This document shows positions 20,672 to 63,211 of a stretch of DNA of 64,000 bases, piece by piece. The DNA is from Cyclobacteriaceae bacterium (GTDB lineage: Bacteria; Bacteroidota; Bacteroidia; Cytophagales; Cyclobacteriaceae): contig JAGQYM010000004.1 in assembly GCA_020436085.1 (NCBI GenBank), positions 1-64,000 of the forward strand, written 5' to 3'. Below the pieces are notes generated by a model that saw only the letters and a list, made by a program, of their open reading frames with translations, did not search any database and was not told where the DNA came from. Each line of letters starts with the position of its first letter. Within the stretch, counting starts at the first letter, position 1. Position numbers and translations under genes: made by a program.

Positions 20672-21544
20672 TCAGACGATTTTATAATTGCGAAACTCAC
20701 CAATTCTCCATCCAGTGAGTTTTTCAACTACTCGTTTGAATCTGTCCTTCGTTCTTAAATTGTTTTTGGAAATGTCGTGATCGAATTGCCAATTGATAGC
20801 GTGTATTCTCGGCTGCATCACTTTTGGGTGAGTTCCTTCAAACCTTCGTAGTGCGTCTATGCCTGTATAGTCAAATGACTCTGCCTGTCCGATGTGCTTC
20901 TCTATCCACTCGTCATCGAAATAAAAGTGATTGAATGACCTTTGCTTTCCTTGCATCGCTCTTGGATCTCGCACCCAGCCATAGTGATACACGTATGCAT
21001 CAATCAGCTTTCCACGCAACTTGATGTCAGGCCTTTTACGAAAACCCTGCGCATCCTTGTAAGAGGTTATCGACTTATCATTTTTAATAACTCGCACTTC
21101 TCTTCTATACCATCGATATGCATCCCCAACGTAATCGTATGATCCATAAAAATGGAGGTAATTAAATATTAGTCCATCGACTGTTGGGTCGTCTTTGTAG
21201 CGGAGCATTGCCTCCTTGATCCGATCGTGATATTTTTCATGAACGATCTCATCTCCTTGGATATAAAAAGCCCAATCCGAATCGGATGAGATTTCATTAA
21301 ACGCCTTATTGGTTTCAATTGCAAACGTTCGCCCCCCTGTACGAAGAGACTCATCCCAAACTGTGTCAATTATTTTAATCTTTGGCGACCCAATCGATTG
21401 GATTAGTTTCCGCGTTTCATCTTCAGAGGCTCCCACGGCAATAACGAATTCATCGCAGAGAGGAAGGATAGAAGTGATGGCCTCCACTACGGGATAATCA
21501 AACTTCACTGCATTTCTTACAAAGGAGAAGCCGCTAACTTTCAT
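20672..21544 (-). CDS. Family 2-like glycosyltransferase
   Basis: A 290-residue GT-A fold enzyme. The N-terminus (MKVSGFSFVRNAVKFDYPVV) and FYIQGDEIVHEKY (metal/acidic site near residue 98) match a GT2 subgroup common in LPS and glycan clusters. The ATG at 21544 overlaps the TGA of the upstream gene (ATGA), which decides the start against an upstream in-frame codon. Donor and acceptor are unknown. Confidence 0.85.
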   Translation of the reverse strand: MKVSGFSFVRNAVKFDYPVVEAITSILPLCDEFVIAVGASEDETRKLIQSIGSPKIKIIDTVWDESLRTGGRTFAIETNKAFNEISSDSDWAFYIQGDEIVHEKYHDRIKEAMLRYKDDPTVDGLIFNYLHFYGSYDYVGDAYRWYRREVRVIKNDKSITSYKDAQGFRKRPDIKLRGKLIDAYVYHYGWVRDPRAMQGKQRSFNHFYFDDEWIEKHIGQAESFDYTGIDALRRFEGTHPKVMQPRIHAINWQFDHDISKNNLRTKDRFKRVVEKLTGWRIGEFRNYKIV

Positions 21545-23082: not shown

Positions 23083-23402
23083 AAATAGAGCGTATGCAAA
23101 TTTCCTGTTTGGCGGGACATAAAACAAGGTTTAAGAAGCGTAAATAAGCCTATTAGACGGCCCTTTTGCTAAGAAAAAGGCAATTCTAGAGTCTGTTCAT
23201 TAGATTCTGAGCCTGAATCAGGTTTATGAATTCCTGTCGATATCCTCCCTTGTCATCGCCCTTTATGCGTGGCCAATTCAAGAACTTCGTCAACCTTAAA
23301 TCAATTTTTGGTGCTCTGACGACTTAAGAATCATCTGGCTATTAACAGCGATGCGAGGTTGGTCGATTTCCTTAAATGTTTACATAATTTTTAACTTGGA
23401 AG
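23083..23402. other. Divergent intergenic region, 320 bases
   Basis: No gene seen. It separates the minus-strand glycosyltransferases from the plus-strand ECF operon and must hold promoters for both. A short imperfect hairpin lies at 23160-23181 (GCC-TTTT / AAAA-GGC) and a 5-bp inverted repeat GATTC/GAATC near 23200. TAATTTTT at 23385-23392 is a weak -7 candidate for the sigma gene, with TTG 23 bases upstream of it. Confidence 0.5.
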
Positions 23403-34480: not shown

Positions 34481-35751
34481 AGTTAATTCACGACAATCTC
34501 TGGCGAGACAAGATATACAAAGTGTTATTGCAGCTGATCATACTTGGTTTTGTAACGTTGTGGTTAAAGGGAACAAATCTGGTCATCATTCTTACCGGAT
34601 TGTTTTGGCTAACAGAGCCTGACCTTAGGAACAAACTCAAAAAAGCCTTAACAAACAAGCTTTTTTTGGCCACGATAACTGTGTTTCTAATTCATGTGAT
34701 CGGGCTTGTTTACACTGATTACTTTAACGATGGCATTAAACAGATCGAAATACGGGCCTCTCTCCTGGTCTTTCCTTTGATTTTTTCGACTGCCCCCATC
34801 AGTAGGACCACCCATGATAGCTTACTCAAAACCTTTATTTGGACTTGTTTCTTCGTTGGATTAATTGGTATTGTGAACGCATTGATCTTATTCAACAGAA
34901 CGTCAAACACGGTTTACTTATACAGTGATAATCTTTTAATCCTTATCAATGGACAAGCCATCTATTTCGCGCTATATCTCAATGTCTGTCTCTTGTTTAT
35001 CTGGGACCTTCAGCGAAGAAATCAGCTTGGCAAATGGAAACCTGTATATCTGGCCGTAGCCGCCCCAATTTTAGTAACACTTATTTTTCTTTTGGCCAGT
35101 CGCATGTCGCTACTAATATTGGCATGCATTGTTTGCCTGGGGATAATTACATTCATTGTAAAGCAAAAAAGATATTTGATGGGGGCTATGTTATGTACGG
35201 TCGTGGTGCTAACGGTGATTGTCCTTGCATTTGCTTTTCCAAAAACAATTAACAGATTCAAAAGCCTGACTTACTTTCATTTTGACTACAAAAACTCCGA
35301 AGAGGTCTACCACTTCAACGATGAGAACTTCGTAGAGAAATGGAATGGTCTAACCGTGCGGTTAGCAATATGGTCCTGTGCTGTTCAGGAATATATCAAA
35401 GTTCCATTTTTTGGAACAGGCACTGGCGGATATATGCCAGCCTTAAGGCAATGCTATCAGGAAAAAGAATTTGTTTTAGGAATCAGGCACGACTACAGTC
35501 CACATAATCAATACATCCAGATGCTACTAAGTTTTGGAGCTTTTGGTTTTCTTATTTTTCTCTTCGCACTAATTTATCCGTTGCATTACAGTTATAAAAC
35601 GGGTGATCTTCTGTACCTGATCTTTTGCATATTCATGCTATTGAATATGACCACAGAGGACGTATTTGGAACTTTTAGAGGAGTGGCTTTTTATGCATTT
35701 ATCAACTCAATGATATTATTTCAGCCGAGGAAGGAACAGGATAAATCTTAG
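34477..35751 (+). CDS. O-antigen ligase/polymerase-like membrane protein (second copy)
   Basis: A 424-residue polytopic protein with the same periplasmic-loop signature as the protein at 31338 (FGTGTGGYMPALRQCY and SPHNQYIQMLLSFGAFG). About 10-12 helices. The two are only distantly alike in the rest of their sequence, so they may handle different glycans. Translationally coupled to the GT4 gene; its end overlaps the convergent ABC ATPase gene by 4 bases. Confidence 0.85.
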   Translation: MKLIHDNLWRDKIYKVLLQLIILGFVTLWLKGTNLVIILTGLFWLTEPDLRNKLKKALTNKLFLATITVFLIHVIGLVYTDYFNDGIKQIEIRASLLVFPLIFSTAPISRTTHDSLLKTFIWTCFFVGLIGIVNALILFNRTSNTVYLYSDNLLILINGQAIYFALYLNVCLLFIWDLQRRNQLGKWKPVYLAVAAPILVTLIFLLASRMSLLILACIVCLGIITFIVKQKRYLMGAMLCTVVVLTVIVLAFAFPKTINRFKSLTYFHFDYKNSEEVYHFNDENFVEKWNGLTVRLAIWSCAVQEYIKVPFFGTGTGGYMPALRQCYQEKEFVLGIRHDYSPHNQYIQMLLSFGAFGFLIFLFALIYPLHYSYKTGDLLYLIFCIFMLLNMTTEDVFGTFRGVAFYAFINSMILFQPRKEQDKS

Positions 35752-36506
35752 TCTGTCGCTTCTTCCTCCACATGATTGTCCTCCATGTACATCTGGATAG
35801 CCTCTTCAGGAGAACCAAGGAACCTAATTTTCCCCTTTTGCAAGTAAATCACTCTATGGCAGTATTTCTTAATGTTGTCCATTGAATGGCTTACCATCAC
35901 GACTGTTCTACCGTCTAACCAGCTCTTCTCGAGGACCTCCACTGCCTTTTTCTTGAACACTGCATCACCAACAGCAAATACTTCATCTAAGAACATAATT
36001 TCAGCATTGGCGTTGACTGCGATTGAAAATGACAAACGCTGAATCATACCAGAGGAGAAGTACTTAATCTTTGTATTTACAAATTCTCCAAGTTCTGCAA
36101 ACTCAATAATCTGATTAAACAACGAATCAATTTTTTTCAATGACAGACCCAAGGCCGAGCCGGTAACATAGATATTCTCTGCAGCAGTTAATTCATGACT
36201 GAGGCCTATTGACAAACTCATTAGCATTGACGAGCCGTTTCGTATCACCTTACCTCCCGCATCGGGTACAAATGCACCGCTCAATACCTTTACAAGCGTT
36301 GATTTCCCGCTTCCATTTCGGCCGATAATTCCGAAGACCTCTCCCTTCGGAACCGAAAACGTTATGTCTTCGAGAGCCTTTAAAATTTTTACTTCCTTCG
36401 TTCTCAGGGCCGAGAATAATCTGGCCTTAAGCGTATCCACCAAAAACTGATCTAAATAGAACGTTTTACTAACTCCTTCGACAACAAGCGCGTAGTCCTG
36501 ATCCAT
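35748..36506 (-). CDS. Polysaccharide ABC exporter, ATP-binding protein (Wzt/TagH-like)
   Basis: A 252-residue ATPase with Walker A GRNGSGKST (62-70), signature SSGMIQRLSF (151-160) and Walker B IMFLDEVFAVGD (170-181), in the Wzt/KpsT style. It lacks the C-terminal carbohydrate-binding domain of long Wzt proteins. The start is ATG 36506; the upstream in-frame start would overlap the permease gene. It energises glycan export with the permease at 36518. Confidence 0.92.
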   Translation of the reverse strand: MDQDYALVVEGVSKTFYLDQFLVDTLKARLFSALRTKEVKILKALEDITFSVPKGEVFGIIGRNGSGKSTLVKVLSGAFVPDAGGKVIRNGSSMLMSLSIGLSHELTAAENIYVTGSALGLSLKKIDSLFNQIIEFAELGEFVNTKIKYFSSGMIQRLSFSIAVNANAEIMFLDEVFAVGDAVFKKKAVEVLEKSWLDGRTVVMVSHSMDNIKKYCHRVIYLQKGKIRFLGSPEEAIQMYMEDNHVEEEATD

Positions 36507-36517
36507 CCTAATTGTAA

Positions 36518-37300
36518 TTACAAAAGTTCGCTGGCACGTGGCCCAAGCCGCTTTAACATCCAAAGCCCCAATAACATAATGAGACTAGCATAAACGAAGT
36601 CAAACCCAATCATCGCCCAATCGGGTTGTTGTTCATACAACATCACTGCTCGCGCGTTATCGATTATTCCAGCCATTGGGTTAGCATAGTTCAAAATTGG
36701 CATCTTCTCTTCGAAAAGTTTACCGCGATAAAGGATAGGCGACAAAAAAAAGAGGAACCCTACTATTATCCCCCAGACCTGGCTAATATCCTTGAACAAC
36801 AAAAAGAGTGAAGACAAAAGTAACGCAACTCCAAGGCTAAGCAGAAAGAGATTAATGAAAACTGGAACAAAGAAGATGTAGTGATAACTCGGGTATATTC
36901 CGCTAATCAACGATCCAATAACAAAAATCCCTATGTTAATAACCAAACTAATAGAGATACTCATCATATGAGATAAGTAGATTTCCAGCTTATTCATATT
37001 AGTATGCGTATACAAATACTTTTTTGTCTGAAGTATCTTAATCATTCCTGTCGATGACTCAGTGAAAAATTGCCAGACTAACAAGCCAGACCATAGGTAG
37101 ATAGCATAGTTGGGTACTCGCTGTCCAAGGATGACTTGAAACACGAGATAATACATCAGAATCTGACTAGCCGGCTTGATCAGTGCCCATAGCAGCCCGA
37201 GCTTATTCTCGTAGTACCTTAGCTTAAATTCGATTTTTGCCAGCATCCACATGCGTTCCCAGCGATGGGCAACTACCGGCTCTCTCTGCACTGATGTCAT
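36518..37300 (-). CDS. Polysaccharide ABC exporter, permease (Wzm-like)
   Basis: A 260-residue ABC-2 type membrane protein with six predicted helices. The N-terminal amphipathic segment (MWMLAKIEFKLRYYENKLGLLWALIKP) is typical of Wzm/KpsM/TagG permeases. ATG 37300 shares one base with the stop of the upstream glycosyltransferase gene. It works with the ATPase 11 bases downstream. Confidence 0.92.
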   Translation of the reverse strand: MTSVQREPVVAHRWERMWMLAKIEFKLRYYENKLGLLWALIKPASQILMYYLVFQVILGQRVPNYAIYLWSGLLVWQFFTESSTGMIKILQTKKYLYTHTNMNKLEIYLSHMMSISISLVINIGIFVIGSLISGIYPSYHYIFFVPVFINLFLLSLGVALLLSSLFLLFKDISQVWGIIVGFLFFLSPILYRGKLFEEKMPILNYANPMAGIIDNARAVMLYEQQPDWAMIGFDFVYASLIMLLGLWMLKRLGPRASELL

Positions 37301-39444
37301 CACCTGTTAGCTATCTTTTCAAACATTTTCGATGCAATGTTACGTAAAATTCTATTGCGCTTTAACCAGTTTACGACTGTTGAATCCTCAAGAATTTGTC
37401 CGAACCGCGCCCCTGTTTTGGCGGGGTTTTTATAGTACATTCCAGGTCCATTTGCATTTAAAATATTTACAATTTCGTCTGCATACCGGGCAAAGAATTC
37501 TTTATGCTTCGCGGAGATGATCTGATAAAGATATAGCTGAGAATATCTATTAAACGCCTGAGCCATTGATGATCTTCTTATTCGGTAATACCAAAGGATT
37601 TCGGGGAGGACCACGCCTCCGTGGCCGCTCTCAACCATACCTATCACGCTATCGTAGTCTTCCATACCGTACACCATGCGAGGGTCATTGAGCCCAAAAC
37701 TCAAGCAGCACTCCGTTTTATAAACGAGAGCACTGCTATTGATCATATTGTGTGTTAGTAAGTAGGGTGGTTCAGGATTAAATGTTGGCCAAACATCTCG
37801 ACTATCACCAAAATATTGTGCCCAGCAACCAACAAAACTGACATTTTCATATTCCTTAAGTACGCGAATAGCCTTTGTGAAATAGGTTCTATTCACTTTG
37901 TCATCTGCGTCAAGAAAAGCCAGGTACTCTCCTGTGGCCAAGCTGGCACCATAATTTCTAGCGGCACTCAAGCCTCGATTATCCTGTCGGACAACTCGAA
38001 CAGGGTATCTGGTTTTGACACCCTCAAGGATTCTCAGACTTTGAGAGTCGCTACTTCCGTCATCAATTATTATTATTTCTTTGTTTGAGTAGTCACTCTG
38101 AATAAGGGACACAACACATTCTTCAATGAATTCCCCAAGGTTATAAAAAGGGACAACTATGCTCAATAAATTCTCTACTAGTCCAGCTGGCATTAAAGGA
38201 AGTTTCCTCTTCTGAGGTCTTATAAAAGGAAACTTACTCACTCTTTTGGGGCTCCGCTTTACCTCTAATAGTTCCATTTTGGTTTGAAAGACAGTTTTAT
38301 AAGAACACTCTTCAAGAATCTTCTTTCGTGCCTTCCGGCCAATTTCCTTAGCTCTTTCTTTGCTGAGGTCAAGTATGGCATGTAGAGTATTTGCAAAGGA
38401 CTGAGGATCATCATGTGAAAACATAAAGCCGTTCTCACCATTCTCTATTAATTCGGAATGCCCACCTTGTGCAGAAGCCAATACGATCTTGCCCATCAAC
38501 ATCACCTCCAAGACGGTATACGGAAGGTTATCAACAACACTTGGCACAATCACAACCTGAGCATTCAGTAATCTTTCATGAAGTTTTTCTGGTAAAATGT
38601 GTCCTTCAAACCTGAGCAATCCTCGTTTAATATATGTCTCGTATTTATGACGCAAGTACGCTCCCATATCCATCATCTTCGGATGGAAGAAGTGCTCACC
38701 TCCACCGATGATATGAATCGGTCTCTCAAAACCTTTATCCCACAGTTCTTTGAAATATTGCAGCATTTCAATTGGCCCTTTTTGCGGGATTAGTTTTCCA
38801 AAGAATACTAATTCTCCAGAATCCCGGCTGTCTGGTTGATCACTTGAACTGAGTGGATTGAAGATAACCGTGCTCTCCAGTTCGGTCAAATCCATACGTT
38901 CAGCCAGCTTGTCCAGAAGGTATTGACTTGGTGAAATAACAAAATCAGCACTTCGAAGCACTGATTTCTCCATTTCACCAACCCAATACTCTGGAGCTTT
39001 AAATCTCGGTGCTTGGTTAAACTCCTGGTACAAAAATCCAGGAGCATGCGCTGTCACGAAAAAACAGGATTTACCGAGATAGTTTTCCTCCAGCAGTCTT
39101 CGTTGTAAAGGATAGTAAGCTATTCCATTATATTCCTGAGCCTCGATAAAATCTGGCTCTCCGTCCTTCTCCTGAAACTCCTTTAACACCTTTGAAAATT
39201 GATAGCTAAGTGCTGCTTCGTGCCCTAAAAAAGAGTTCTGCGGATTGCCACTGGCTTTAAAATAGATCAGCCGAATATTCTCTTGCTGCATCACAATCCT
39301 GGTTGACTGTGACTGGACTGCTGGAATAAAAACTGTTACCTGAATATTATTCTCAGCGAGCATGCGTGCCGTATGCCAACAATATGTACTGATTCCTCCG
39401 CCACTCAGGGGAGGGTACTCTGTCGTCAAAAGCCAGAATTTCAT
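37300..39444 (-). CDS. Fused GT4-GT2 glycosyltransferase
   Basis: A 714-residue soluble protein. The N-terminal GT4 domain (about 1-410) starts LLTTEYPPLSGGGISTYCWH and has VFFGKLIPQKGP, IHIIGGGEH and the donor-site region around VLEVMLMGKIVLASAQGG. The C-terminal GT2 domain (about 425-714) starts LLSIVVPFYNLGEFIEECV and has FLDADDKVNRTY. It is directly coupled to the ABC exporter genes, suggesting its product glycan uses that exporter. Confidence 0.92.
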   Translation of the reverse strand: MKFWLLTTEYPPLSGGGISTYCWHTARMLAENNIQVTVFIPAVQSQSTRIVMQQENIRLIYFKASGNPQNSFLGHEAALSYQFSKVLKEFQEKDGEPDFIEAQEYNGIAYYPLQRRLLEENYLGKSCFFVTAHAPGFLYQEFNQAPRFKAPEYWVGEMEKSVLRSADFVISPSQYLLDKLAERMDLTELESTVIFNPLSSSDQPDSRDSGELVFFGKLIPQKGPIEMLQYFKELWDKGFERPIHIIGGGEHFFHPKMMDMGAYLRHKYETYIKRGLLRFEGHILPEKLHERLLNAQVVIVPSVVDNLPYTVLEVMLMGKIVLASAQGGHSELIENGENGFMFSHDDPQSFANTLHAILDLSKERAKEIGRKARKKILEECSYKTVFQTKMELLEVKRSPKRVSKFPFIRPQKRKLPLMPAGLVENLLSIVVPFYNLGEFIEECVVSLIQSDYSNKEIIIIDDGSSDSQSLRILEGVKTRYPVRVVRQDNRGLSAARNYGASLATGEYLAFLDADDKVNRTYFTKAIRVLKEYENVSFVGCWAQYFGDSRDVWPTFNPEPPYLLTHNMINSSALVYKTECCLSFGLNDPRMVYGMEDYDSVIGMVESGHGGVVLPEILWYYRIRRSSMAQAFNRYSQLYLYQIISAKHKEFFARYADEIVNILNANGPGMYYKNPAKTGARFGQILEDSTVVNWLKRNRILRNIASKMFEKIANR

Positions 39445-41117: not shown

Positions 41118-42977
41118 CTATTTACATGGCCATCGTCTAAAGATTCCTCCAATCTTTAAATACCACTTTGGCAAATGTCCATACGTTCGATCATACCAGG
41201 ATAGGCCATTTTCAAGTTCAACGACTTGCTTTCTTGCCGACTCAAGCATCTGATCCTTTACTTGATTCCTGACTTTCAATTTCTGCTCGAGTATATTACA
41301 TCTGCTATTTAGTGCAGCTATTCTATCGTTTGCTAATTCGAGTGGCGTCTTCTCCATTGCGCCAATTTTGGCGTCAAGTTTTGGGTATTCATATTCAATT
41401 TCCCCAGATAATCTTGACCTCCACACTCTTCTAAACTCCAGTTTCTCCTCTTGTCTATGGCGATTGGTCACGTTAGCCTCACCCATTTCTGTACTGATGA
41501 CAAGAACTTCATCGATCCTTTTGTATAATCCCTCTATCGGATCACAGTCCCTAAGAAAAGTGTGTACGTTCTCGTCATCATAAAACCGAACATCCGCCAG
41601 ATGAAACAGTATGCGTTCACAAAACTCAGCATCTGAGGCAAATCGTTTTTCCCAAAACAAACCAAGTTTTTCAAATAGCGATCTGCTAAACATAGAACTG
41701 TTAAGGCCTAATATCTCCCGATCTCGGTACTCAAATTTTCCATCACTATTCGGGATTCTCCTACTCTGCACCATTTGAATCATCTTGTTGTCATCTGAGA
41801 GATCAAATTCATCAGCTCGACACCGACTTCGGTAGATCCTTGAAATAACAAATTCCGCCTGACCAGCTACCAACGGAATGAGCTGGCGCTCTATTCTGGT
41901 GCTCAGAGAAATGTCGTCAGCATCCTGAATGGCTATGTAACGACCCCTGGATTGTCTAATCGCATCGTTGCGAACAAAATAACATCCACGGTTTTCTTTA
42001 TTTTCAAGAAGCGTTATTCTGGAATCCCTAGCTTGAATTTTCTTTACAACCTCTACTGTGTTGTCAGTGCTACCATCGTCTGCGACAATAACTTCCAATC
42101 TAGGGTAAGTTTGATTGATGACTGACATGAGGCATTTTTCAATCGTCAACTCAGCATTAAATGCCGGAACGATCACACTAACAAGGTCGCGATATTCATC
42201 AATATCATACAGTTCCATGTCCCATTTGACTTTCTCCGCTAATTCATATTGATTTCTTCCAATACCGATATTACTGTCAGAAACATCAGCTATCACGAGG
42301 TTTGGCTGAGCTACGAAACACTGTTCCTGATACAATTCACAAACGCGTCTCAAAGGGCCGGAATCAAAGGGAGCATTGAACCGTTCAATCTCCTCAATCA
42401 GTAGATCATAGATACTGCTATCGATCCCAATAGCAAATGATCCATCTGTTATTAGCGGGTAATAGAAGGGTTCCTGAACATCATACTCTGTTTTACTGGA
42501 GTCACGATACCGATTGGTCTTCGGCAAATTCCAGGTGTGTTGAGTAGCTCCGAGATATAGTAGTTTCCAATTCTCGCCAACTTCCCTAATAAATCGATCA
42601 AATTCCGCGTGAAAATTTTTATGAAAAAGTACGTCATCATCAAAACACAGGATTCTCCTATATCCGCTTATTTTCGCCTGTTCCAGGATTTTGTGATATG
42701 TTTTTAAGTAGCCCCAGGCACCAGGGCTCTGAATTAGTTTTTTATTGTATTTTAATTCAAGTGGATGAGCACCCTTCGCGCCAACTGGAGAGTTGACATA
42801 TTTATCATACTCGTTCAAATTGGGTTCTGACGAGCCATCAACCGCTTCTGTGACTTCTGCGTGAAATCCATAATAATTTAACTTCTGCAGCATACTAAGC
42901 TTGCGGTCTGTTCTCTTAGAGAGATTGATTAGAAATGTCCTATCGAATATTGAAGTTAAACTGTGGCGAGTTTTCAT
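41118..42977 (-). CDS. Fused GT25-GT2 glycosyltransferase
   Basis: A 619-residue protein. The first part (about 1-250) is GT25-like (LPS glycosyltransferase): FLINLSKRTDRKLSML, then FDDDVLFHKNFH and YLGATQHTWN. A GT2 domain follows (about 262-500): VSVIVPAFNAELTIEKCLMS, VADDGSTDNTVEV and AIQDADDISLSTR. A short coiled coil and a tail shared with the neighbouring GT2 finish the protein. The start is ATG 42977; the in-frame TTG at 42995 is less likely. Confidence 0.9.
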   Translation of the reverse strand: MKTRHSLTSIFDRTFLINLSKRTDRKLSMLQKLNYYGFHAEVTEAVDGSSEPNLNEYDKYVNSPVGAKGAHPLELKYNKKLIQSPGAWGYLKTYHKILEQAKISGYRRILCFDDDVLFHKNFHAEFDRFIREVGENWKLLYLGATQHTWNLPKTNRYRDSSKTEYDVQEPFYYPLITDGSFAIGIDSSIYDLLIEEIERFNAPFDSGPLRRVCELYQEQCFVAQPNLVIADVSDSNIGIGRNQYELAEKVKWDMELYDIDEYRDLVSVIVPAFNAELTIEKCLMSVINQTYPRLEVIVADDGSTDNTVEVVKKIQARDSRITLLENKENRGCYFVRNDAIRQSRGRYIAIQDADDISLSTRIERQLIPLVAGQAEFVISRIYRSRCRADEFDLSDDNKMIQMVQSRRIPNSDGKFEYRDREILGLNSSMFSRSLFEKLGLFWEKRFASDAEFCERILFHLADVRFYDDENVHTFLRDCDPIEGLYKRIDEVLVISTEMGEANVTNRHRQEEKLEFRRVWRSRLSGEIEYEYPKLDAKIGAMEKTPLELANDRIAALNSRCNILEQKLKVRNQVKDQMLESARKQVVELENGLSWYDRTYGHLPKWYLKIGGIFRRWPCK

Positions 42978-43135
42978 AACCTTGATTATAACCAATTCAA
43001 ATTAGCCGTTAGATTCCTAAGTGACTATCAACTAAATTATGTTTGCACAACTTGATTGGCAAAATCAAACAAAAGTATCACATTTACGGCCTTCCAATTG
43101 CTCTCAAAACAAATTTAAGCTTACAATTACTTCCG

Positions 43136-46455: not shown

Positions 46456-49400
46456 ATGCAAATAGTAGTTCTAGGAATGCATAGATCGGGAACCTCCGTT
46501 GTCTCGAGAATTCTCAACCTAATGGGAATTTATTTTGGAGCCGAAGGATCCTCTACTTCAGCAAATGACGAGAACCCGAAAGGCTTTTGGGAAAGGCAGG
46601 ACGTCAGAAATCTAAACGACTATATCTTACAGAGCAACGGGCTGGATTGGTACAAGATTTCTGAGTACTCATTGGAAAAATTTTCATCTGAGTCGATACA
46701 TGAGTTTGAATCGAAGGCCAAAAAACTAATCTTGTCACTTGACGCTCATCGACCTTGGTTCATTAAGGAACCGAGGTTGTGCCTTACGCTTCCATTTTGG
46801 CTAAAGCTTCTGGAGGTTCCGGTGTGTGTGTTCGTCTATAGAAACCCACAAGAAATCGCAGCATCTTTGGAAAAACGAAATGGGTTCCCCCTTCATTTTG
46901 GAATTGATCTATGGGAGCGTTATACCTACTCTCTCTTGAGGGCTAGTGAAAATCTACCTTTGATCTTTGTTAATTACAATAATCTGCTACAAAACCCGAA
47001 GGAAGAAATTGACGCCCTATTTCAGAAGCTCTCATCAGCAGGTATTTCACCCTTACGAAAGATTAGTGACAAGGAACTAAATGCTTTTATAGATTCAAAT
47101 CTCTACAGAAATAGAAGCACTGGACTCAGCCTATTGAGACCAAATCAGCTAATGCTTTACAACCAGGTGTTAGCCCAAGAAATCAACAATACATTTCTGG
47201 ACTCTTATACGACAACTAAGCTCTCGGATACCTCTTTAAAAAGAATGGAGGAATTATTTGATTTCAGAATTAGACTCCAAGGGATGTTCAAAGATGCGGA
47301 TGACGTTCTGAATAGGATTGCAACAGAGCGCGAAAACAGGGAAAAACTTTCTAAAGAAAATAGCGAGAGGGCTTCAGAAATAGCGAGACTGAAACAGAGT
47401 CTTTCAATTTCACAACAGGCACACAAAAACAAAGTCCTGGAAGAGGAAATTTTGAAACTCAAATTTGAAAACGAAAGGAGAGAATACGAAAACGAAAGGA
47501 AAGAGTACGATCTGAAAATCAAAAATCTAAACCAACGAATTAATCTATTAACAAAAAACATAAATGACAAAGAAGCCTTGATAAGCAAATATTGGTTTCA
47601 AATTCAAGATATGAGGTTGTCCAGTAGATTACTGAGATTATTTGGAATCCGAAAAAGAACAGGTTCACTAATTGAAAGTGTCAAAAAAAGTTTTGACGAG
47701 CGGTCCGACAGGAAAACGCTCAATCAAAAAAAGACAAAAATTGTACAATCTATCGTCAGCTCTTCAGACCACTCTCTTCCGAGCGAAAAACCTATGGTAA
47801 GCATAATCATCATCAATCGAGATGGCCTTGCTCACCTCAAAATACTTTTTAATAAATGGAAAGAAACCACCATCTATCCCAACTACGAAATCATAGTTTT
47901 TGACAACGACTCCAAAGACGACTCCGTCAGATACCTCAATAAACTGAACCTCAATCTAAGAGTGATTAGAAACAATACTAATGACTCATTTTCATCCGCC
48001 AACAATAAAACCGCATCAGAAGCGAAGGGAGAATTACTTCTTTTTCTGAACAATGACACTGAACCTATTTATGGGTGGTTGAACCAAATGGTAAAAATGT
48101 ATCTGACCAATAAAGAAAAAATCGGATCAATTGGAGCACGGCTAATTTATCCCATTCAAGAGGGGGAGGAGAAAAGTCTAAGGATCCAGCACAACGGAAT
48201 TGGATTCAAAATGGATAACGATTTTTTCCGGCCATATAATCTGGACAACAACGAAGAATACTGCGACCTACCTAAAAAGGATGATTTCCATCGAATCTGC
48301 ACAACAGCTGCATGCCTCTTGGTGCCCAAAAATAGATTTAATGAGGTTGGAGGATTTGATGAACAATATGTTTACGGGTTTGAAGATGTAGACTTGGGTC
48401 TCAAATTGCATCAGGGTGGCTATGATAATCTAATCTGCTACAACTCAGTGCTATTCCACTACGAATTCGGCACACAAGGAAATGAGGCTATCGATGTGGT
48501 GGCAAGTCGCAGGAATAAGAATAGGGACATTCTGAAAGAAAAATGGCACAAGTACTTACAGACTCAAATTTTCAAAGAAAAGTTGATTTCGAACGGCACC
48601 TTGTTGTTTACTCGCACCAAAATGACAGTGGCCTTTGTTGTGACCGAAGCTAAGGATGATACCACGGCTGGTGATTACTTCACTGCTCAAGAGCTAGGGA
48701 TTCAATTCAGGCAAAAAGAATGGAACGTAGTTTTTCTGGAGAGAAAGAATGGGGACTGGTATGACATCCCGCTCGAGGTTGACATCCTTATTGTTATGTT
48801 GCACAATTATGATATTTCTAAAATAAAAACGAAGAGAAATATTGTCAAAATCGTCTGGATGCGAAACTGGTTCAATGCATTTGCTGAAGACTACAGTTTG
48901 CATAGATATGATATCACACTTGTTTCAAGCGCAATTGCCCAGAACTATTTGCGTGAGAGGATAGGAATAGCAAGTTATGTTTTCCCAATTGCTGGTAATC
49001 ATGATCGCTTCAAAAATGAGAACAACAAATATGACCCAAATTTTGAGTGCGACTTCTGTTTCACTGGCAGCTACTGGAATGACCCACGCGAAATCATTGA
49101 TTTGCTCCATCCAGAGCTTTTGCCAGAATACAAATTTCATTTATATGGGCTTGGGTGGGAATCCGTGAGAAAATTCAAGATCTACCAAAAAGGCTTCGTA
49201 CCTTATGCAGAGATGCCCGTGGTCTACCAAAACACGAAAATCCTAATTGATGATGCCAATAGAGTAACTAAATCCTGGGGGTCAGTAAATAGCAGAGTTT
49301 ATGACGCCATTCTTAGTGGCGTCCTGGTGTTAACTAATAATGAAAAGGGATCTGCGGAAATTTTCAATAAAAAGCTTCCCGTGTTTAAAACAACAGAAGA

Positions 49401-50463
49401 ACTAAACCAGCTTATTAGGTTTTACCTTACGAACACCGAGGAGAGAATCCAATTAGTCACTGAACTACAAGAGATTGTAAAACAACATCACACTTATAGC
49501 ACGAGAGCCAATGAACTCATCTCACTTTTGAACTCATGGGGAACTTCGGAGAAGATTGCCTTAAAGGTACCAGCGCCAGCTTGGGATGTGTGCAAAGAAT
49601 GGGGGGATTTTCACCTCGCATTAGGGCTCAAAAAGCAATTTGAAAAATTGAAATTTTTAGTGTCAATTCAAATGCTGCGCGAATGGGATGATGATATAGC
49701 CGCTGACTACGTTTTGGTATTCCGAGGGCTGAGCAGGTACTACCCCAAAAAATGGCATTTCAATATGATGTGGAATATTTCCCATCCAGATGAGATTCAG
49801 CTAGAAGAGTATCAACAATTTGATCACGTTTTTGTGGCCTCGAATAAGCTCACCAAAAAATTAAAACCAATTTTGGGAGCAAAAGTGAGTCCTTTACATC
49901 AATGCACTGATCCAGAAATTTTTAGGCCAACAGATGACCCAATCAAAACTGAAGTGTTATTCGTTGGAAACTCGAGAAAGGTTCTTAGGGATGTAGTGAA
50001 AAACGTCATATCATTCAGTCAATTTCAATTCAAGGTATACGGTTCATATTGGGATGGGCTCATTGATCCAAAATACATTGGAGGAGAACACATTGAGAAC
50101 AGAGACCTCTACAAATACTATTCTGGCGCTAAGGCCCTTTTAAATGACCATTGGGAAGACATGAAAGAAGAAGGGTTTGTATCGAATAGACTATTCGATG
50201 CTGTGGCCTGTAACGCTAACATCGTCAGCGATTATATGAAAGAGATTGAGGAAATCTTTGGAAACAGAGTCCACACTTATAAAGATAGGGATCAATTGCT
50301 CGAACGCCTGTCAGTCTGCACCAATGGCGCAATTAGACACTATAATGATGGGCACGAATTCGTCTCCAAATACCACAGCTTCGAAACAAGAGCAAATCAG
50401 ATCTTATCAATAATTAACGACCGGAAAAAATCTCATGGAGAAAACGGAAAAACACTCAATTAA
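46456..50463 (+). CDS. Four-domain sulfotransferase-GT2-CgeB-CgeB protein
   Basis: A 1335-residue cytosolic protein. Residues 1-215 are sulfotransferase-like, with the PAPS 5'-phosphosulfate loop GMHRSGTSVVSR and VYRNPQEIAASLEKR. Residues about 265-385 form a charged coiled coil. A GT2 domain spans about 444-715 (VSIIIINRDGLAHL, FLNNDTEPIYGW, YGFEDVDLGLKL). Residues about 722-1030 and 1040-1325 are two GT-B domains like CgeB (CFTGSYWNDPREII with WGSVNSRVYDAILSG; VLFVGNSRKVLRD with EGFVSNRLFDAVACN). It probably adds several sugars and perhaps sulfate to one glycan. The end overlaps the next gene by 29 bases. Confidence 0.85.
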   Translation: MQIVVLGMHRSGTSVVSRILNLMGIYFGAEGSSTSANDENPKGFWERQDVRNLNDYILQSNGLDWYKISEYSLEKFSSESIHEFESKAKKLILSLDAHRPWFIKEPRLCLTLPFWLKLLEVPVCVFVYRNPQEIAASLEKRNGFPLHFGIDLWERYTYSLLRASENLPLIFVNYNNLLQNPKEEIDALFQKLSSAGISPLRKISDKELNAFIDSNLYRNRSTGLSLLRPNQLMLYNQVLAQEINNTFLDSYTTTKLSDTSLKRMEELFDFRIRLQGMFKDADDVLNRIATERENREKLSKENSERASEIARLKQSLSISQQAHKNKVLEEEILKLKFENERREYENERKEYDLKIKNLNQRINLLTKNINDKEALISKYWFQIQDMRLSSRLLRLFGIRKRTGSLIESVKKSFDERSDRKTLNQKKTKIVQSIVSSSDHSLPSEKPMVSIIIINRDGLAHLKILFNKWKETTIYPNYEIIVFDNDSKDDSVRYLNKLNLNLRVIRNNTNDSFSSANNKTASEAKGELLLFLNNDTEPIYGWLNQMVKMYLTNKEKIGSIGARLIYPIQEGEEKSLRIQHNGIGFKMDNDFFRPYNLDNNEEYCDLPKKDDFHRICTTAACLLVPKNRFNEVGGFDEQYVYGFEDVDLGLKLHQGGYDNLICYNSVLFHYEFGTQGNEAIDVVASRRNKNRDILKEKWHKYLQTQIFKEKLISNGTLLFTRTKMTVAFVVTEAKDDTTAGDYFTAQELGIQFRQKEWNVVFLERKNGDWYDIPLEVDILIVMLHNYDISKIKTKRNIVKIVWMRNWFNAFAEDYSLHRYDITLVSSAIAQNYLRERIGIASYVFPIAGNHDRFKNENNKYDPNFECDFCFTGSYWNDPREIIDLLHPELLPEYKFHLYGLGWESVRKFKIYQKGFVPYAEMPVVYQNTKILIDDANRVTKSWGSVNSRVYDAILSGVLVLTNNEKGSAEIFNKKLPVFKTTEELNQLIRFYLTNTEERIQLVTELQEIVKQHHTYSTRANELISLLNSWGTSEKIALKVPAPAWDVCKEWGDFHLALGLKKQFEKLKFLVSIQMLREWDDDIAADYVLVFRGLSRYYPKKWHFNMMWNISHPDEIQLEEYQQFDHVFVASNKLTKKLKPILGAKVSPLHQCTDPEIFRPTDDPIKTEVLFVGNSRKVLRDVVKNVISFSQFQFKVYGSYWDGLIDPKYIGGEHIENRDLYKYYSGAKALLNDHWEDMKEEGFVSNRLFDAVACNANIVSDYMKEIEEIFGNRVHTYKDRDQLLERLSVCTNGAIRHYNDGHEFVSKYHSFETRANQILSIINDRKKSHGENGKTLN
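47467..47508 (+). repeat. Two tandem 21-bp repeats in the coiled-coil linker
   Basis: Two adjacent 21-base units (47467-47487 and 47488-47508) differ at few positions and encode ENERREY and ENERKEY. They add three heptads' worth of charged helix to the linker between the sulfotransferase and GT2 domains of the 46456 protein. Confidence 0.85.
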
Positions 50464-51595
50464 TAATTTTGATAGTGAAGTTTTCAAGAAACTCAGTGAT
50501 GAAGATCTGTATTTTATAAAATCTGAATATTTGACCTTGGCTGCTGCAGACGCCCAGGCCTATCGTGAGAATATTGAAGATTACCTTCAATACGATAAGA
50601 CACTGAGTGTCGGTAAAGAAAAGAACGTCACAATTCTTCTGGAAACATCGTCTATAGGAAGATACCTATTCCACCTGGCATTTTTCTTTCTCGACACGGG
50701 ACACCGCGTTTTCTTAGTTGCGAAATCCGCAATTATCGCACGGTTAGACGTTTATTCTAAGAAACTCTTTCCGCTGAACAATTTCTTTCTCCTATTTACT
50801 GTTAATTCAAAAGGTACCATAGTTTCTGATAGCGAGAAATCTCATTGCGATATCCTATTAAACTTTAACTATTTCAGTAAGACTCAAGCCTCATCCAAGG
50901 CCTCATTTCCCTTCCCAATGCACCCGATGCAGTATTTGTTGGGTAGATACAAAGAACTGCATTCCATCAGGGAAAATAAGACCAAGATAAAAATATTATT
51001 CGCGGGTAACCTCAATGAGAGTCTTTACGGGCGCCTCTCTCCTAAATTTGGAATACTGCAGCGTCATAGTGTAATAAATAAATTAATAACTGAGCTAACT
51101 GATGAGGAGATTCTCGTCTTGGACAGCTCATATACCTCAGAAAAAATTCAAAAAGGGGAATTCATTAATAAGCTAGTAATTCTTGATAGTAGGCTTGGTT
51201 TGGTAAAGCCACCAACTTGGTTAAGCTTCTTATCCTGCAGTAGTTTTTACCTTGCTCTGCCAGGAGTTGTAAATCCCCTAAGTCACAACATCATTGAATC
51301 TCTGGCCGTAGGTGTAATTCCAATTACACAATATGGGCATTATTTGCGTCCAAAGTTAAGCGATGAAGTTAACTCTTTATCATTCGACCAAAATTCGTTA
51401 ATACCAACAATAAGAAAGATTCTAAATATGGATTCTGAAGATTTCTCTAGTATGCGTGATAGTTGTATTTCTCAATATGAAAATCATTTTTCAACGCAGC
51501 ACTTTCGGAACATCATTGAGAACCGTACCACAGCCATTGAATTAATATTCAATACAGGTCACTCTTCCGCTGCGCAATTCATACGAGGAGACTAG
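50435..51595 (+). CDS. Unknown protein, probable GT-B glycosyltransferase
   Basis: A 386-residue soluble protein with no family I can name. Residues about 165-350 look like the second half of a GT-B fold: IKILFAGNLNESLYGRLS, EEILVLDSS, and LALPGVVNPLSHNIIESLAVGVIPITQYG, with a glycosyltransferase-like E in the donor-site position. The ATG lies 29 bases inside the previous gene, so expression is probably coupled. Function in glycan assembly is inferred from location and fold. Confidence 0.65.
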   Translation: MEKTEKHSINNFDSEVFKKLSDEDLYFIKSEYLTLAAADAQAYRENIEDYLQYDKTLSVGKEKNVTILLETSSIGRYLFHLAFFFLDTGHRVFLVAKSAIIARLDVYSKKLFPLNNFFLLFTVNSKGTIVSDSEKSHCDILLNFNYFSKTQASSKASFPFPMHPMQYLLGRYKELHSIRENKTKIKILFAGNLNESLYGRLSPKFGILQRHSVINKLITELTDEEILVLDSSYTSEKIQKGEFINKLVILDSRLGLVKPPTWLSFLSCSSFYLALPGVVNPLSHNIIESLAVGVIPITQYGHYLRPKLSDEVNSLSFDQNSLIPTIRKILNMDSEDFSSMRDSCISQYENHFSTQHFRNIIENRTTAIELIFNTGHSSAAQFIRGD

Positions 51596-51686: not shown

Positions 51687-53789
51687 ATGGGAGACCCCAG
51701 AATTATCGCCATTTCTATGAATTCAAGTTTATTAAAAAGATTTACTAACCGGCTAGCCACGCTTCGCACGCGAATAATGATAACAGAAGACGGAAGAATC
51801 CACACCATTCTACTCTTCATACTCATTTTTGCATTAGTTGTCAGACTCCTGGGTATTGCAGAAGGGTTGCCCTACATCCATCATTTTGATGAACCTTATA
51901 TTGCATCAACCGCTCTGCAAATGATGAGGTCAGGTGATTTAAACCCTCATTGGTTTTATTATCCAGGCTTCATGATGTATGCCTGCTTTGGCATAGACAT
52001 ATTACATTACTTGCACTTGGTTGGTCAAAGCGCGGACTCGGTCAACTATATAAATGATTTAAAGGATATTGTTATCAATAAAGATACCGGCTGGAATTGG
52101 ACCATCTCCCATCCGTCCTTCTATCTGTGGAATCGAGGCTTGATTGCGATATTTGGTACAATTGCGGTTTACTTCACGTTTTTGATTGGCAAAGAAGTTT
52201 CTAACAATAGTTACGTTGGCCTTATAGGCGCTTGTTTTGTCGCAGCATCTTCAGAGCTTATAAAGCACTCCCAGGTCATCACCCCCAATATGACAGGCGT
52301 ACTATTTGTACTTGGGGCAGTCTACTTTTCGTTGAAATTTAACTCAACTAGAAAGAATTCAGATCTGCTTAATTCCCTAATATTTGTTGGGCTGGCTATC
52401 GCTACGAAGTATAATTATGCAATCTGCATGATCATCCCCATGTTGAGTTTCTTGGCGAACGCGAAGCACACAAAATTTAATTATGTATACGGCCTTGTGA
52501 TTTGTTTCACAATTCCGACTTTAGTTTTCTTTCTATTCAACCCATTTACTTTAATCAATTTTAGTGAATTTCTTGGGCATATGAGCCGAATGATTCGGCA
52601 CTACAAGGTAATGGGACATGGAAGTCATACTATTGAGCCTGGCATCACTCATTTCCTTTTTCAAATTGGAATATTCAAAAAAGAATTTGGAATTGTACTT
52701 CTGACCATTTCTGTTTTTGGGATGATATTGTCATTCAAGCTAAAAAATGGATGGCTCCTATTCCTGTTCCCTGCCATATACATGCTATACATGACAAGGC
52801 AAAGAGTCGACTTTCATAGAAATTTCATTGCCCTATATCCGTTCATCGGTATATGGATAGGCCTGGCTGTATATTTTTGTCATGAATACCTTAAGAAATG
52901 GGTTGACAATCTTAAAACAAGAATTTCAGGCCAAAATCTTCGAACATTTTTAATCAAGACACCCTATACTGCGATTATCTTGGTGTTAGTTTTAACCGCA
53001 AAAACGGAACTTGTAAAAGCAGTTAATGTCTACAAACAAAAGGAGACGCGATCACAAGCTATTGATACAATAAATGAACTAGTCAAAAATTACAGGCCGG
53101 GAACAACGATTGCTATTGCTAAGGAACTGAGAATTCACGAACAAGATTTGAGGCGTCTTAATGTCAGGTACGACATCATTAATCATTTAGATTTCAAGAA
53201 ATCTGAAAAGTATAAGTTTTTCGTCACTGCGCTATATAGTCTTCCAGCAAATTTCAAATCAAAAGAAGACTCTATTTATAACGTGGCCTATGCCAACAAT
53301 GAAGTGATCCGAAAAATTGCGGGGAGGAGTAAAATGCGGCTTAAGGTCTTCACTGGCGACCCTACAATCTATATTTATGAAAGAGGTGAAACAATTTATT
53401 CGAATATTTCACCGAGTTCGTTTGATGGGATCAGTAAGACATCAAAATGGGATGAAAATGCGCCACCAGAAACCTACATAGGTACAAGTGGCGGTGAGTA
53501 TACAACACCTATCTTTCAGCTAGAGCCAGGTATCTACAGGTTATCTGCTGTGTTAAAAGGTACGGCAGTTGCCAATGAATCAGCGAAACTTGAGTTCACA
53601 TTAGGTGATAGACACCTAGCAGGTATCAACACAACTACCTCATTTTCTGAATTTAGCCATGATTTCGAAGTCGATACATTAACCAAAGCGCGACTTAGAC
53701 TGTATTTTCTAAACGACCACTGGAATCCCGAAAAAGGAGAAGATCGAAATTTCTACATTAAGGATTTACGAGTACAAAAAGTTAGATGA
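51687..53789 (+). CDS. GT39-like (PMT/ArnT-type) membrane glycosyltransferase
   Basis: A 700-residue polytopic protein. After the first helix (about 41-60) the periplasmic loop has HHFDEPYIASTALQMMRSGD and NPHWFYYPGFMMY, the acidic catalytic loop of PMT/ArnT-type GT-C enzymes. About 10-12 helices run to residue 440, followed by a soluble C-terminal part whose last 130 residues are beta-rich and may bind carbohydrate. It would transfer a sugar from polyprenyl phosphate. An internal ATG at 51717 is an alternative start. Confidence 0.82.
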   Translation: MGDPRIIAISMNSSLLKRFTNRLATLRTRIMITEDGRIHTILLFILIFALVVRLLGIAEGLPYIHHFDEPYIASTALQMMRSGDLNPHWFYYPGFMMYACFGIDILHYLHLVGQSADSVNYINDLKDIVINKDTGWNWTISHPSFYLWNRGLIAIFGTIAVYFTFLIGKEVSNNSYVGLIGACFVAASSELIKHSQVITPNMTGVLFVLGAVYFSLKFNSTRKNSDLLNSLIFVGLAIATKYNYAICMIIPMLSFLANAKHTKFNYVYGLVICFTIPTLVFFLFNPFTLINFSEFLGHMSRMIRHYKVMGHGSHTIEPGITHFLFQIGIFKKEFGIVLLTISVFGMILSFKLKNGWLLFLFPAIYMLYMTRQRVDFHRNFIALYPFIGIWIGLAVYFCHEYLKKWVDNLKTRISGQNLRTFLIKTPYTAIILVLVLTAKTELVKAVNVYKQKETRSQAIDTINELVKNYRPGTTIAIAKELRIHEQDLRRLNVRYDIINHLDFKKSEKYKFFVTALYSLPANFKSKEDSIYNVAYANNEVIRKIAGRSKMRLKVFTGDPTIYIYERGETIYSNISPSSFDGISKTSKWDENAPPETYIGTSGGEYTTPIFQLEPGIYRLSAVLKGTAVANESAKLEFTLGDRHLAGINTTTSFSEFSHDFEVDTLTKARLRLYFLNDHWNPEKGEDRNFYIKDLRVQKVR

Positions 53790-60627: not shown

Positions 60628-61497
60628 CTACTTTGTAGGAAATCCCATTTCCCCTACAAAGGAAATATCTTCAGGAGAGAATTCACTAATATCCTCATTC
60701 TTATATCTTCCAATAGAGTCCGGTGGTTTTACAAATTGTAAAAGGTGATCAATGATTTCTTTACGAATTTCAAAATTTAAAAACTTGAGCAATTTTTGCA
60801 GCCCAATTTCGGGATTGGCGCAGAAGTTATCATAATTAACCAAATAGAAGTTTTCTCCCAGAGTTTTCCCAATGGATAACATTCTCTTATGTACCCAACA
60901 CCAATAACTTAGTGACGCTTTTGGGTCAAATTTAGGTGCCTTTTCAAAAACTAACCACCACCATCTTCTGAGCTGATTCTGATTGTCGCTAAATGCCATA
61001 TCAAGCCCATTTCTCATGACATGTATGTATTTTAAGTCTGGAATGCACTTTACAAGACGATCAATTAAGATATGCGTGTTGGGTTCTTTCCAGCCCCATC
61101 CTTGAATTCTACCCTGCTCAAGTTGAGATTGACGGCTAATTATTTCAATTCTTTCATCAAGCCAGAGAGGCCTTGTAGTAGCAGGATTATCTTTCATGGA
61201 AAATCTTTTTATAAAATCTATTTCCACAGGAGTCAAAATTGAACCCATTTTCATCCTCTTGGCAAATAAAGTGACCGCTTCTTCAAATTCTGAATCAATG
61301 CATTTTACACTTGTATCATTCTTAAAAATTAGAGTGAAAAGCAAATTGTCGAGTGAGTCATTCAAATCCTCACCCATCCAGTATCCCAACTCCGAGAGAA
61401 TTTTGCAGAATAGGCGAGTCCCGCTCCCTCCAACTCCACCTATCGCAACCGGATGTCCTAATTCTGTGTTACCTTGCAGCTCATTTGATATTGGCAT
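60628..61497 (-). CDS. Sulfotransferase-family protein
   Basis: A 289-residue protein with an N-terminal PAPS-type loop (VAIGGVGGSGTRLFCKIL) and the central IHVMRNGLDMAFSDNQNQLRRW region that fits the 3'-phosphate-binding Arg/Ser motif. FYLVNYDNFCANPEIGLQKL is typical of the family C-terminal half. Likely sulfates a sugar in the surface glycan; the substrate is inferred. It is divergent from the unknown gene at 61565. Confidence 0.83.
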   Translation of the reverse strand: MPISNELQGNTELGHPVAIGGVGGSGTRLFCKILSELGYWMGEDLNDSLDNLLFTLIFKNDTSVKCIDSEFEEAVTLFAKRMKMGSILTPVEIDFIKRFSMKDNPATTRPLWLDERIEIISRQSQLEQGRIQGWGWKEPNTHILIDRLVKCIPDLKYIHVMRNGLDMAFSDNQNQLRRWWWLVFEKAPKFDPKASLSYWCWVHKRMLSIGKTLGENFYLVNYDNFCANPEIGLQKLLKFLNFEIRKEIIDHLLQFVKPPDSIGRYKNEDISEFSPEDISFVGEMGFPTK

Positions 61498-62521: not shown

Positions 62522-63211
62522 ATGTCTTTTATTTCGTTACGTCACAAGTTGATATTCATTCATATCGCCAAAACCGGTGGAAAAAGCATGAATGTGCTTC
62601 TTAAAAATCATTGTAAACCTGAGATTGTCTTTAATACAAAGTCGCTAATTCATAATACTGATCAGCTGGGAAAAAGAATCGCACTAGAAGCAATGAAGTT
62701 AACTAGCAATGAGGTGTGGGATTCATGCTTTAAGTTTGCTTTTGTGCGTAATACCTGGGATCGAACCGTTTCTATGTATGAACACCTCAAAGAATCATAC
62801 CGGAGCCAAATGTCAACGGGAGGCACTCCGAATGACAAAATAGAAATCGTAAACTCGATTCTGGATGTTTTGAATATAAAATTTGAGGATTTCACTTTTG
62901 AAGTTTTCGTGAAATCCATCATTAGAGATCAAATGTTTAAAAACTATCATTGGGACTTGCAGCTGAATTGCATCAGTGACGGAGAAGATAGGATTGTAAT
63001 AGATTACATTGGCCGTTTTGAGTCATTGGAAAAAGATTTTGGTTTTGTTTGCAGCCATGTGGGGCTTCCTAAACTCCATTTACCACATTTTCACAAATCC
63101 AACCACTCACATTATGCAATGTACTATACCAACGAATTAGTGAAGATTGTAGGAGATTTTTACAAAAAAGACAATGATTACTTTCAATATAAATTCAATC
63201 ATTCGATCTGA
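62522..63211 (+). CDS. Sulfotransferase family 2 protein
   Basis: A 229-residue carbohydrate sulfotransferase-like protein. The N-terminal IFIHIAKTGGKSMNVLL is the PAPS 5'-phosphosulfate loop and FVRNTWDRTVSMYEHLK the 3'-phosphate-binding segment, both well preserved. Length fits compact Sulfotransfer_2 proteins. Its stop lies one base from the stop of the convergent membrane protein. Confidence 0.9.
   Translation: MSFISLRHKLIFIHIAKTGGKSMNVLLKNHCKPEIVFNTKSLIHNTDQLGKRIALEAMKLTSNEVWDSCFKFAFVRNTWDRTVSMYEHLKESYRSQMSTGGTPNDKIEIVNSILDVLNIKFEDFTFEVFVKSIIRDQMFKNYHWDLQLNCISDGEDRIVIDYIGRFESLEKDFGFVCSHVGLPKLHLPHFHKSNHSHYAMYYTNELVKIVGDFYKKDNDYFQYKFNHSI

Follow-up and report, generated by a model that had tools for sequence, protein, structure and literature searches.

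Within a 64,000-nucleotide stretch of a Cyclobacteriaceae bacterium genome (assembly GCA_020436085.1, contig JAGQYM010000004.1, positions 1 to 64,000; hereafter the window, meaning the whole stretch analysed), one open reading frame (ORF) encodes a 1335-residue protein that joins a sulfotransferase, a long predicted helix, a family 2 glycosyltransferase (GT2) and two consecutive CgeB-like domains (B1 and B2). By analogy with described chain-length systems, this protein may be a polymerase that ends its own chain by sulfation in an ATP-binding cassette (ABC)-transporter-dependent surface polysaccharide pathway, a reading to which we give a little less than even weight. The features on which it draws are as follows.

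46456..50463, + strand: whole gene, sulfotransferase, long helix, GT2, CgeB-like 1, CgeB-like 2; 1335 amino acids, open frame
46456..47130, + strand: sulfotransferase domain, residues 1-225 (GMHRSGTS 7-14, KEPR 104-107, YRNP..AASL 128-138)
47227..47643, + strand: predicted long helix, residues 258-396 (confident over 291-370 only; putative coiled coil)
47647..47700, + strand: amphipathic basic stretch, residues 398-415 (moment 0.556, shuffle p 0.005; low model confidence)
47776..48591, + strand: GT2 domain, residues 441-712 (NND 532-534, ED 643-644)
48592..49539, + strand: first CgeB-like domain (B1), residues 713-1028 (PF13524, model, homology to B2)
49546..50421, + strand: second CgeB-like domain (B2), residues 1031-1322 (PF13524, model, homology to B1)

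The protein would act on the cytoplasmic face of the inner membrane, where the GT2 and the two CgeB-like domains would lengthen a lipid-linked chain, with the long helix, which probably forms a dimeric or trimeric coiled coil, keeping the sulfotransferase up to ~20 nm from the polymerase. On reaching the sulfotransferase, the growing end would be sulfated from 3'-phosphoadenosine-5'-phosphosulfate (PAPS) and undergo no further extension, and the sulfate-capped chain would be exported by Wzm/Wzt. Joint action of all modules on a single sulfated glycan is a reasonable assumption. What we infer is that the domains are catalytically active, that sugars are polymerised and not just added singly, that sulfate is the terminal group, that the helix is a ruler, that the protein touches the membrane and that the pathway uses the ABC transporter of the window.

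A single uninterrupted frame had been described in an earlier note on this DNA, and the frame is indeed open across 46456-50463 with coding signal throughout; a stop codon lies six codons upstream of the ATG, and the N-terminus begins straight at the sulfotransferase P-loop strand. Each of the six segments, the stretch joining helix and GT2 among them, has a positive codon score in its own frame and negative ones in the two alternatives, the in-frame advantage never dropping below +0.06 in a 60-codon window, and a frame artefact was judged unlikely on these scores. An artefact of assembly or frame fusing two genes would fit a five-module order encountered in no other genome examined, but the in-frame coding signal continues through the junction and sulfotransferase–helix–glycosyltransferase fusions of other kinds are present elsewhere, making this explanation very hard to credit. 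The full-length gene is single copy in its own genome, where the other match is one 25% match in the GT2 range only. A phage origin was considered and rejected, PHROGs giving no match and one scan of viral_contigs no relative; 13 phage records match the protein, the 10 listed spanning the GT2 range only. A promoter and terminator scan at the gene returned fewer sites than in shuffles and was uninformative.

Judged against curated cut-offs, Pfam matches residues 3-192 to Sulfotransfer_3 (PF13469; 35.7 bits, cut-off 27); matches of NCBIfam profiles to the 1335-residue protein all fall far below the NCBIfam cut-offs. Residues 1-440 were modelled with AlphaFold2 at a mean predicted local distance difference test score (pLDDT) of 73.9, blocks within 1-210 scoring mostly 74-90 and being weak at 31-50 and 71-80. 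Foldseek searches with this model returned sulfotransferases at ranks 1-35, with CurM and olefin synthase domains first (best matches 4gbm, E 5.5e-6, and 4gox, E 1.1e-5); target template modelling scores are only 0.51-0.54, with root-mean-square deviations of 11-12, for a query model that includes the helix. In an alignment of the window protein with 11 relatives, the P-loop HRSGT is conserved in nine of the ten relatives aligned at that position (L059 reads HRSAT), KDPR or KEPR in 10 of 11 (SDPR in L052), and the 3'-phosphate-site arginine in all 11. The features of a PAPS-dependent sulfotransferase (5'-phosphosulfate loop, 3'-phosphate site and fold) are present in the window protein, and the PAPS-loop sulfotransferase N-terminus proposed in the earlier note is borne out by the Pfam match, the intact motifs and the Foldseek ranks. 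Supply of PAPS is plausible, since the genome encodes an adenosine-5'-phosphosulfate kinase and three Sulfotransfer_3 genes. The window cluster is rich in sulfation genes, with two more sulfotransferase genes at 60628-61497 (- strand) and 62522-63211 (+ strand) (Sulfotransfer_3 and Sulfotransfer_2) separated by a 322-amino acid ORF without a Pfam match.

The helix modelled over residues 258-396 comprises 139 residues, ~21 nm if straight. A Fourier analysis of 3.5-residue periodicity gave a peak of 8.3 for residues 254-316, against up to 12.3 in 91-residue windows elsewhere in the protein; since this periodicity is not exceptional, the long helix is supported and the coiled coil is putative, so that of the charged coiled coil described in the earlier note the helix is retained and the coiling stays conjectural. 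Residues 398-415, in a low-confidence region of the model, offer a possible membrane contact near the polymerase.

The GT2 core is upheld by a Glycos_transf_2 match over cut-off (PF00535, residues 449-596; 61.7 bits, cut-off 23.3) together with intact motifs. PF13524, which carries the Pfam name 'Glycosyl transferase-like' and for whose domains we take CgeB-like to be the label, matches the protein in two stretches (146.9 bits, cut-off 25); B1 and B2 are homologous to one another (hhalign 100%, E 4.5e-40, 285 columns, 19% identity). A model of residues 441-1335 reached a pLDDT of 88.2 and a predicted template modelling score of 0.86. The 50 PDB matches listed for a structure search of the glycosyltransferase block are all polypeptide N-acetylgalactosamine-transferases, aligned to the GT2 part, so that Pfam and the confident model are what supports the GT-B fold of B1 and B2; the two CgeB-like GT-B domains of the earlier note stand as PF13524 domains, with their GT-B fold unmatched among those structures. 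By sequence, no solved-structure relatives were found for B1 (best E 0.3) or B2 (best E 1.2), and the best match of the block profile to solved structures is chondroitin synthase, in the GT2 range.

Motifs are intact in the GT2 domain (NND and ED), in B1 (DDAN..NSR) and in B2 (NDHW..SNR), the DXD site of the GT2 domain reading NND in the window protein and likewise in most aligned relatives. In two proteins comprising GT2-B1 only (L022:9956-11797 and L023:2764-4725) the GT2 motifs have degenerated (to HNN or NSN, and from ED to AD), and in L052:10246-12714 (genome G416) the GT2 domain and most of B1 have decayed with B2 intact. Glycosyltransferase modules thus appear, from their aligned motifs, to decay independently in relatives, the window copy being free of such decay. 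Domain search and structure prediction, the checks suggested in the earlier note, upheld its domain calls with motifs intact, the coiled coil and the GT-B fold of B1 and B2 being putative.

As judged from sequence, GT2-B1-B2 is a real, mobile tri-module. A scan of genome_contigs, which needs short exact peptide patterns, yielded 15 loci from 52 pattern-matched stretches, of which ten show the GT2-B1-B2 order by segment BLAST (L014-L021, L024 and L025, with a B2 truncated by or close to the end of the contig in L017 and L020); the others feature GT2-B1 (L022, L023, L026), B1 alone (L027) or B1 before GT2 (L028). The sulfotransferase segment has no match (E up to 1e-3) in these 15 ORFs, in L010, L011 and L013, or in the 822-amino acid ORF of L052. 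Methanobacteriaceae GT2-B1-B2 proteins (L014-L016, L021, L024) share with the window protein three glycosyltransferase modules in the same order, but are ~955-1053 amino acids long and, unlike it, have no sulfotransferase segment found in them. Identity to the window protein is 42-47% for methanogen rows with at least two modules, and 32-38% in Phormidium, Paracoccus, Tabrizicola and one Acetobacter metagenome-assembled genome; in plasmid proteins of P. yeei and P. aminophilus the block stands behind different N-termini. The N-terminal stretches of Phormidium L018:2677-5718 and P. yeei L010:6309-10736 are alike by eye and possibly carbohydrate-binding (P0002 is without a Pfam family there). 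An unrooted tree of 12 of the 19 rows of alignment A2 (L013, L017, L022, L023, L026, L027 and L052 omitted as partial or divergent; L028 kept out of A2 because its module order differs) places the window protein with five rows from Methanobacteriaceae, apart from six rows of cyanobacterial or alphaproteobacterial origin, with 100/100 support. The grouping of the window protein with methanogens suggests transfer of the glycosyltransferase block between domains of life, in either direction.

A whole-protein query at set thresholds matched 8 of 295 family, 4 of 390 order and 22 of 395 phylum genomes, own genome included; these counts are lower bounds, as draws overlap and only two candidates were scored per genome. 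The places listed outside the own genome cover only the sulfotransferase, the GT2 domain (reaching into B1 as far as residue 801 at most) or B2; 265 plasmid records match, none of them over 80% of the query in one place. Among 267 genomes from the class the B2 profile matched the own genome only, and the window sulfotransferase matches 10 of the 241 genomes searched from the order, again counting its own. The same five-module order was not found in the family, order, phylum, plasmid or contig searches, which is worded as 'not found' rather than unique because the searches are samples and the contig scan depends on exact peptide patterns; in the wider Cytophagales, where the earlier note had called for an architecture search, the four matching order genomes show this order in none but the own.

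Sulfotransferases attached to long stretches have also been identified in other genomes, both as separate proteins and as fusions. A separate sulfotransferase with a long, charged, helix-like tail, as read from sequence, adjoins the tri-module gene of P. aminophilus; another, in Phaeobacter (G2), adjoins a protein of two GT4-type domains and one GT2, with ABC transporter genes in the same locus; a third, on a Cereibacter plasmid (L070:4971-6434), lies by kaiC and kaiB, with a rhamnan synthesis F gene one gene away. All three end in STSW[RK][VI]T.P[LI]R. Fusions comprise a 1325-amino acid protein of G416 (sulfotransferase, long stretch, GT4-type and GT2 domains) and a 1005-amino acid protein of G947 (L086:4469-7483; sulfotransferase, long stretch, two GT2 domains), the sulfotransferase of the latter being found by the profile built in this analysis (E 2.1e-49) and not by Pfam at 0.01. 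The G947 contig runs Wzm, Wzt, sulfotransferase and then the fusion; with this genome, drawn from the Bacteroidota sample, at 82% completeness and 3% contamination, the contig might be foreign. Its Wzt (L086:1567-3660) is a single polypeptide of ABC_tran, Wzt_C and a GT2-like part, and only the sulfotransferase gene separates it from the fusion downstream. The G947 fusion resembles the window protein in proceeding from sulfotransferase through a long stretch to glycosyltransferase modules in one chain, with Wzm/Wzt in the cluster, and differs from it in having two GT2 domains, no CgeB-like domain, an SW[RK].T.PLR-type motif and a Wzt with Wzt_C. A 763-amino acid sulfotransferase-like ORF in G827 has a GT-like C-terminal part by eye, and the sulfotransferase profile matches 11 of the 395 genomes searched from the phylum, the own genome being one of them. 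The remark of the earlier note that it knew of no described enzyme with this order agrees with the searches for the five-module order, which was not found, and is narrowed for the general plan, which is not unique to the window protein because sulfotransferase–helix–glycosyltransferase fusions with other modules exist.

In described ABC-transporter-dependent assembly (the cited papers being drawn on here in extract), a coiled-coil ruler bears the terminator at its distal end, with polymerase modules separate or fused at the other end, and terminators of this type add methyl, methyl-phosphate or 3-deoxy-D-manno-oct-2-ulosonic acid (Kdo) groups (PMC11231755). Klebsiella pneumoniae ORF6-O7, like the window protein, has an N-terminal terminator, a central coiled coil and C-terminal glycosyltransferases in an ABC pathway; its terminator is a methyltransferase-kinase and its glycosyltransferases two GT2 domains, in place of a sulfotransferase and GT2-B1-B2, and the extracted text mentions neither sulfotransferase nor sulfate (PMC11231755). 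WbbB of K. pneumoniae O12 combines polymerisation, termination and ruler in one polypeptide, as proposed here, but with a Kdo transferase as terminator and GT99, GT102 and GT103 domains (PMC11231755). In Escherichia coli O9a WbdD/WbdA a cap enzyme on a coiled coil sets chain length, likewise as proposed here, although the cap is a methyltransferase-kinase and the polymerase a separate protein (PMC3482155); the separate sulfotransferase-tail proteins beside glycosyltransferase genes are like this split. A sulfate stop has a precedent in matriglycan, whose extension by LARGE1, a polymerase with a coiled coil, is ended by HNK-1ST sulfation, in this case by two separate proteins of the eukaryotic Golgi, a likeness for which no homology is claimed (PMC9746966). 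Sulfotransferases have also been reported in ABC-type clusters of cyanobacteria (PMC8205485). Literature searches in one open library returned no sulfotransferase-terminated bacterial polymerase, from which absence from print is not established.

The window protein has the ruler-type layout, with a transferase at the N-terminal end of an extended helix and glycosyltransferase modules after it, so that its order matches the terminator, coiled-coil ruler and polymerase plan with a sulfotransferase in the terminator place; it may work like WbbB or ORF6-O7. It is not filed as a member of the WbdD, WbbB or ORF6-O7 group because Wzt_C is absent, the coiled coil, membrane helix and terminator function are putative, and neither WbdD nor WbbB matched it among PDB chains (E up to 1). 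An ABC transporter is present in the window locus (Wzm and Wzt, 35748-37303):

36518..37303, - strand: ABC-2 permease (Wzm-type), 9 kb from the gene; putative link to the gene
35748..36563, - strand: ABC ATPase (Wzt-type), 271 amino acids; Wzt_C not found

In the methanogen loci L015, L016 and L021 genes for an ABC-2 permease and an ATPase come immediately after the tri-module in the same orientation, and L014 has a partial permease there; L024 is without permease or ATPase, and L017 ends without its downstream part. In G416, genes for Wzm-Wzt, a GT2 and a membrane protein precede that of the 822-amino acid relative. The terminator–helix–polymerase order, the methanogen ABC linkage and the separate sulfotransferase-helix proteins beside glycosyltransferase genes are the reasons why the comparative evidence favours somewhat more a polymer with a sulfated growing end than the processive assembly of a defined oligosaccharide suggested in the earlier note.

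Several observations weigh against chain termination by sulfate. Only 80 residues of the helix are modelled with confidence (block pLDDT 79-90 over 291-370, 47-69 at both ends), and its heptad periodicity is unremarkable for this protein; the SW[RK].T.PLR-type motif is absent from the window protein; and in the G416 fusion Pfam finds no sulfotransferase and two motif residues are lost (SDPR; L for a conserved S). The Wzm/Wzt pair lies 9 kb off on the opposite strand to the 1335-residue gene. No Wzt_C was detected in the 271-amino acid Wzt at E up to 0.01, and it is absent also from the Wzt of G416 and of the methanogen loci. The C-terminal domain of Wzt reads the chain end in O9a and O12 and is perhaps dispensable in some members. 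Two Wzy_C proteins are encoded in the window, and no Wzm/Wzt relative (E up to 1e-10, half length) was found in the fetched stretches of L010, L011, L018, L019, L025 and L026.

The last two observations would suit an oligosaccharide or repeat-unit builder, close to the view of the earlier note, in which each glycosyltransferase adds one sugar, the sulfotransferase decorates a short glycan, a Wzy-type enzyme polymerises and the helix serves as spacer or for dimerisation; three different modules could make three linkages, and four Polysacc_synt flippases are encoded elsewhere in the genome. All four sit on other contigs, with none on that of the window, the methanogen tri-module adjoins Wzm-Wzt, and a long helix between transferase and glycosyltransferases is the described mark of ruler systems (PMC11231755), which together make such a builder less likely than the sulfate-capping polymerase. 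The sulfate might instead be a decoration, laid down on the repeats during growth by a sulfotransferase working alongside a polymerising glycosyltransferase block. Counting also against a sulfate cap, the ABC-exported capsule of Cobetia carries sulfate on rhamnose (Rhap2S) inside its written structure (PMC11766843), so that a sulfotransferase in an ABC-type locus need not be a terminator; the two further sulfotransferase genes in the window and the lack of a Wzt_C for reading the chain end agree with decoration. A sulfotransferase at the far end of a helix is, however, ill placed to act on every repeat, and the separate sulfotransferase-helix proteins suggest that the helix matters, which leaves repeat sulfation improbable.

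More broadly, and more tentatively than for the window protein itself, sulfation may be a chain-ending chemistry of bacterial ABC-exported polysaccharides, with sulfotransferases on long helices, free or fused to polymerases, forming an unrecognised class of rulers of which the window protein would be the most complete form seen here, uniting polymerase, ruler and cap and built on a tri-module shared with methanogens. If so, a sulfate cap would join methyl, methyl-phosphate and Kdo as a further terminus; sulfotransferases on long helix-like stretches beside or inside glycosyltransferase genes in Bacteroidota and Alphaproteobacteria would be explained; one enzyme would suffice for sulfated chains of set length; and the CgeB-like domains, without solved relatives by sequence, would gain a testable role.

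The gene directly downstream overlaps the 1335-residue ORF by 29 bases:

50435..51595, + strand: next gene, 386 amino acids; no Pfam match over cut-off, similar by eye to a GT-B C-terminal half

The window further holds a Bac_transf and a Glycos_transf_4 protein, a Poly_export protein of the genome lies on contig C120, and an ABC transporter permease is annotated near L013, which shares B2 only. Fused glycosyltransferases are also encoded on the - strand at 37300-39444 (GT4-type and GT2), 41118-42995 (GT25 and GT2) and 21541-23127 (two GT2 stretches), and a PMT_2-type membrane protein with a CBM60 match at its C-terminus is encoded at 51687-53789 (+ strand).

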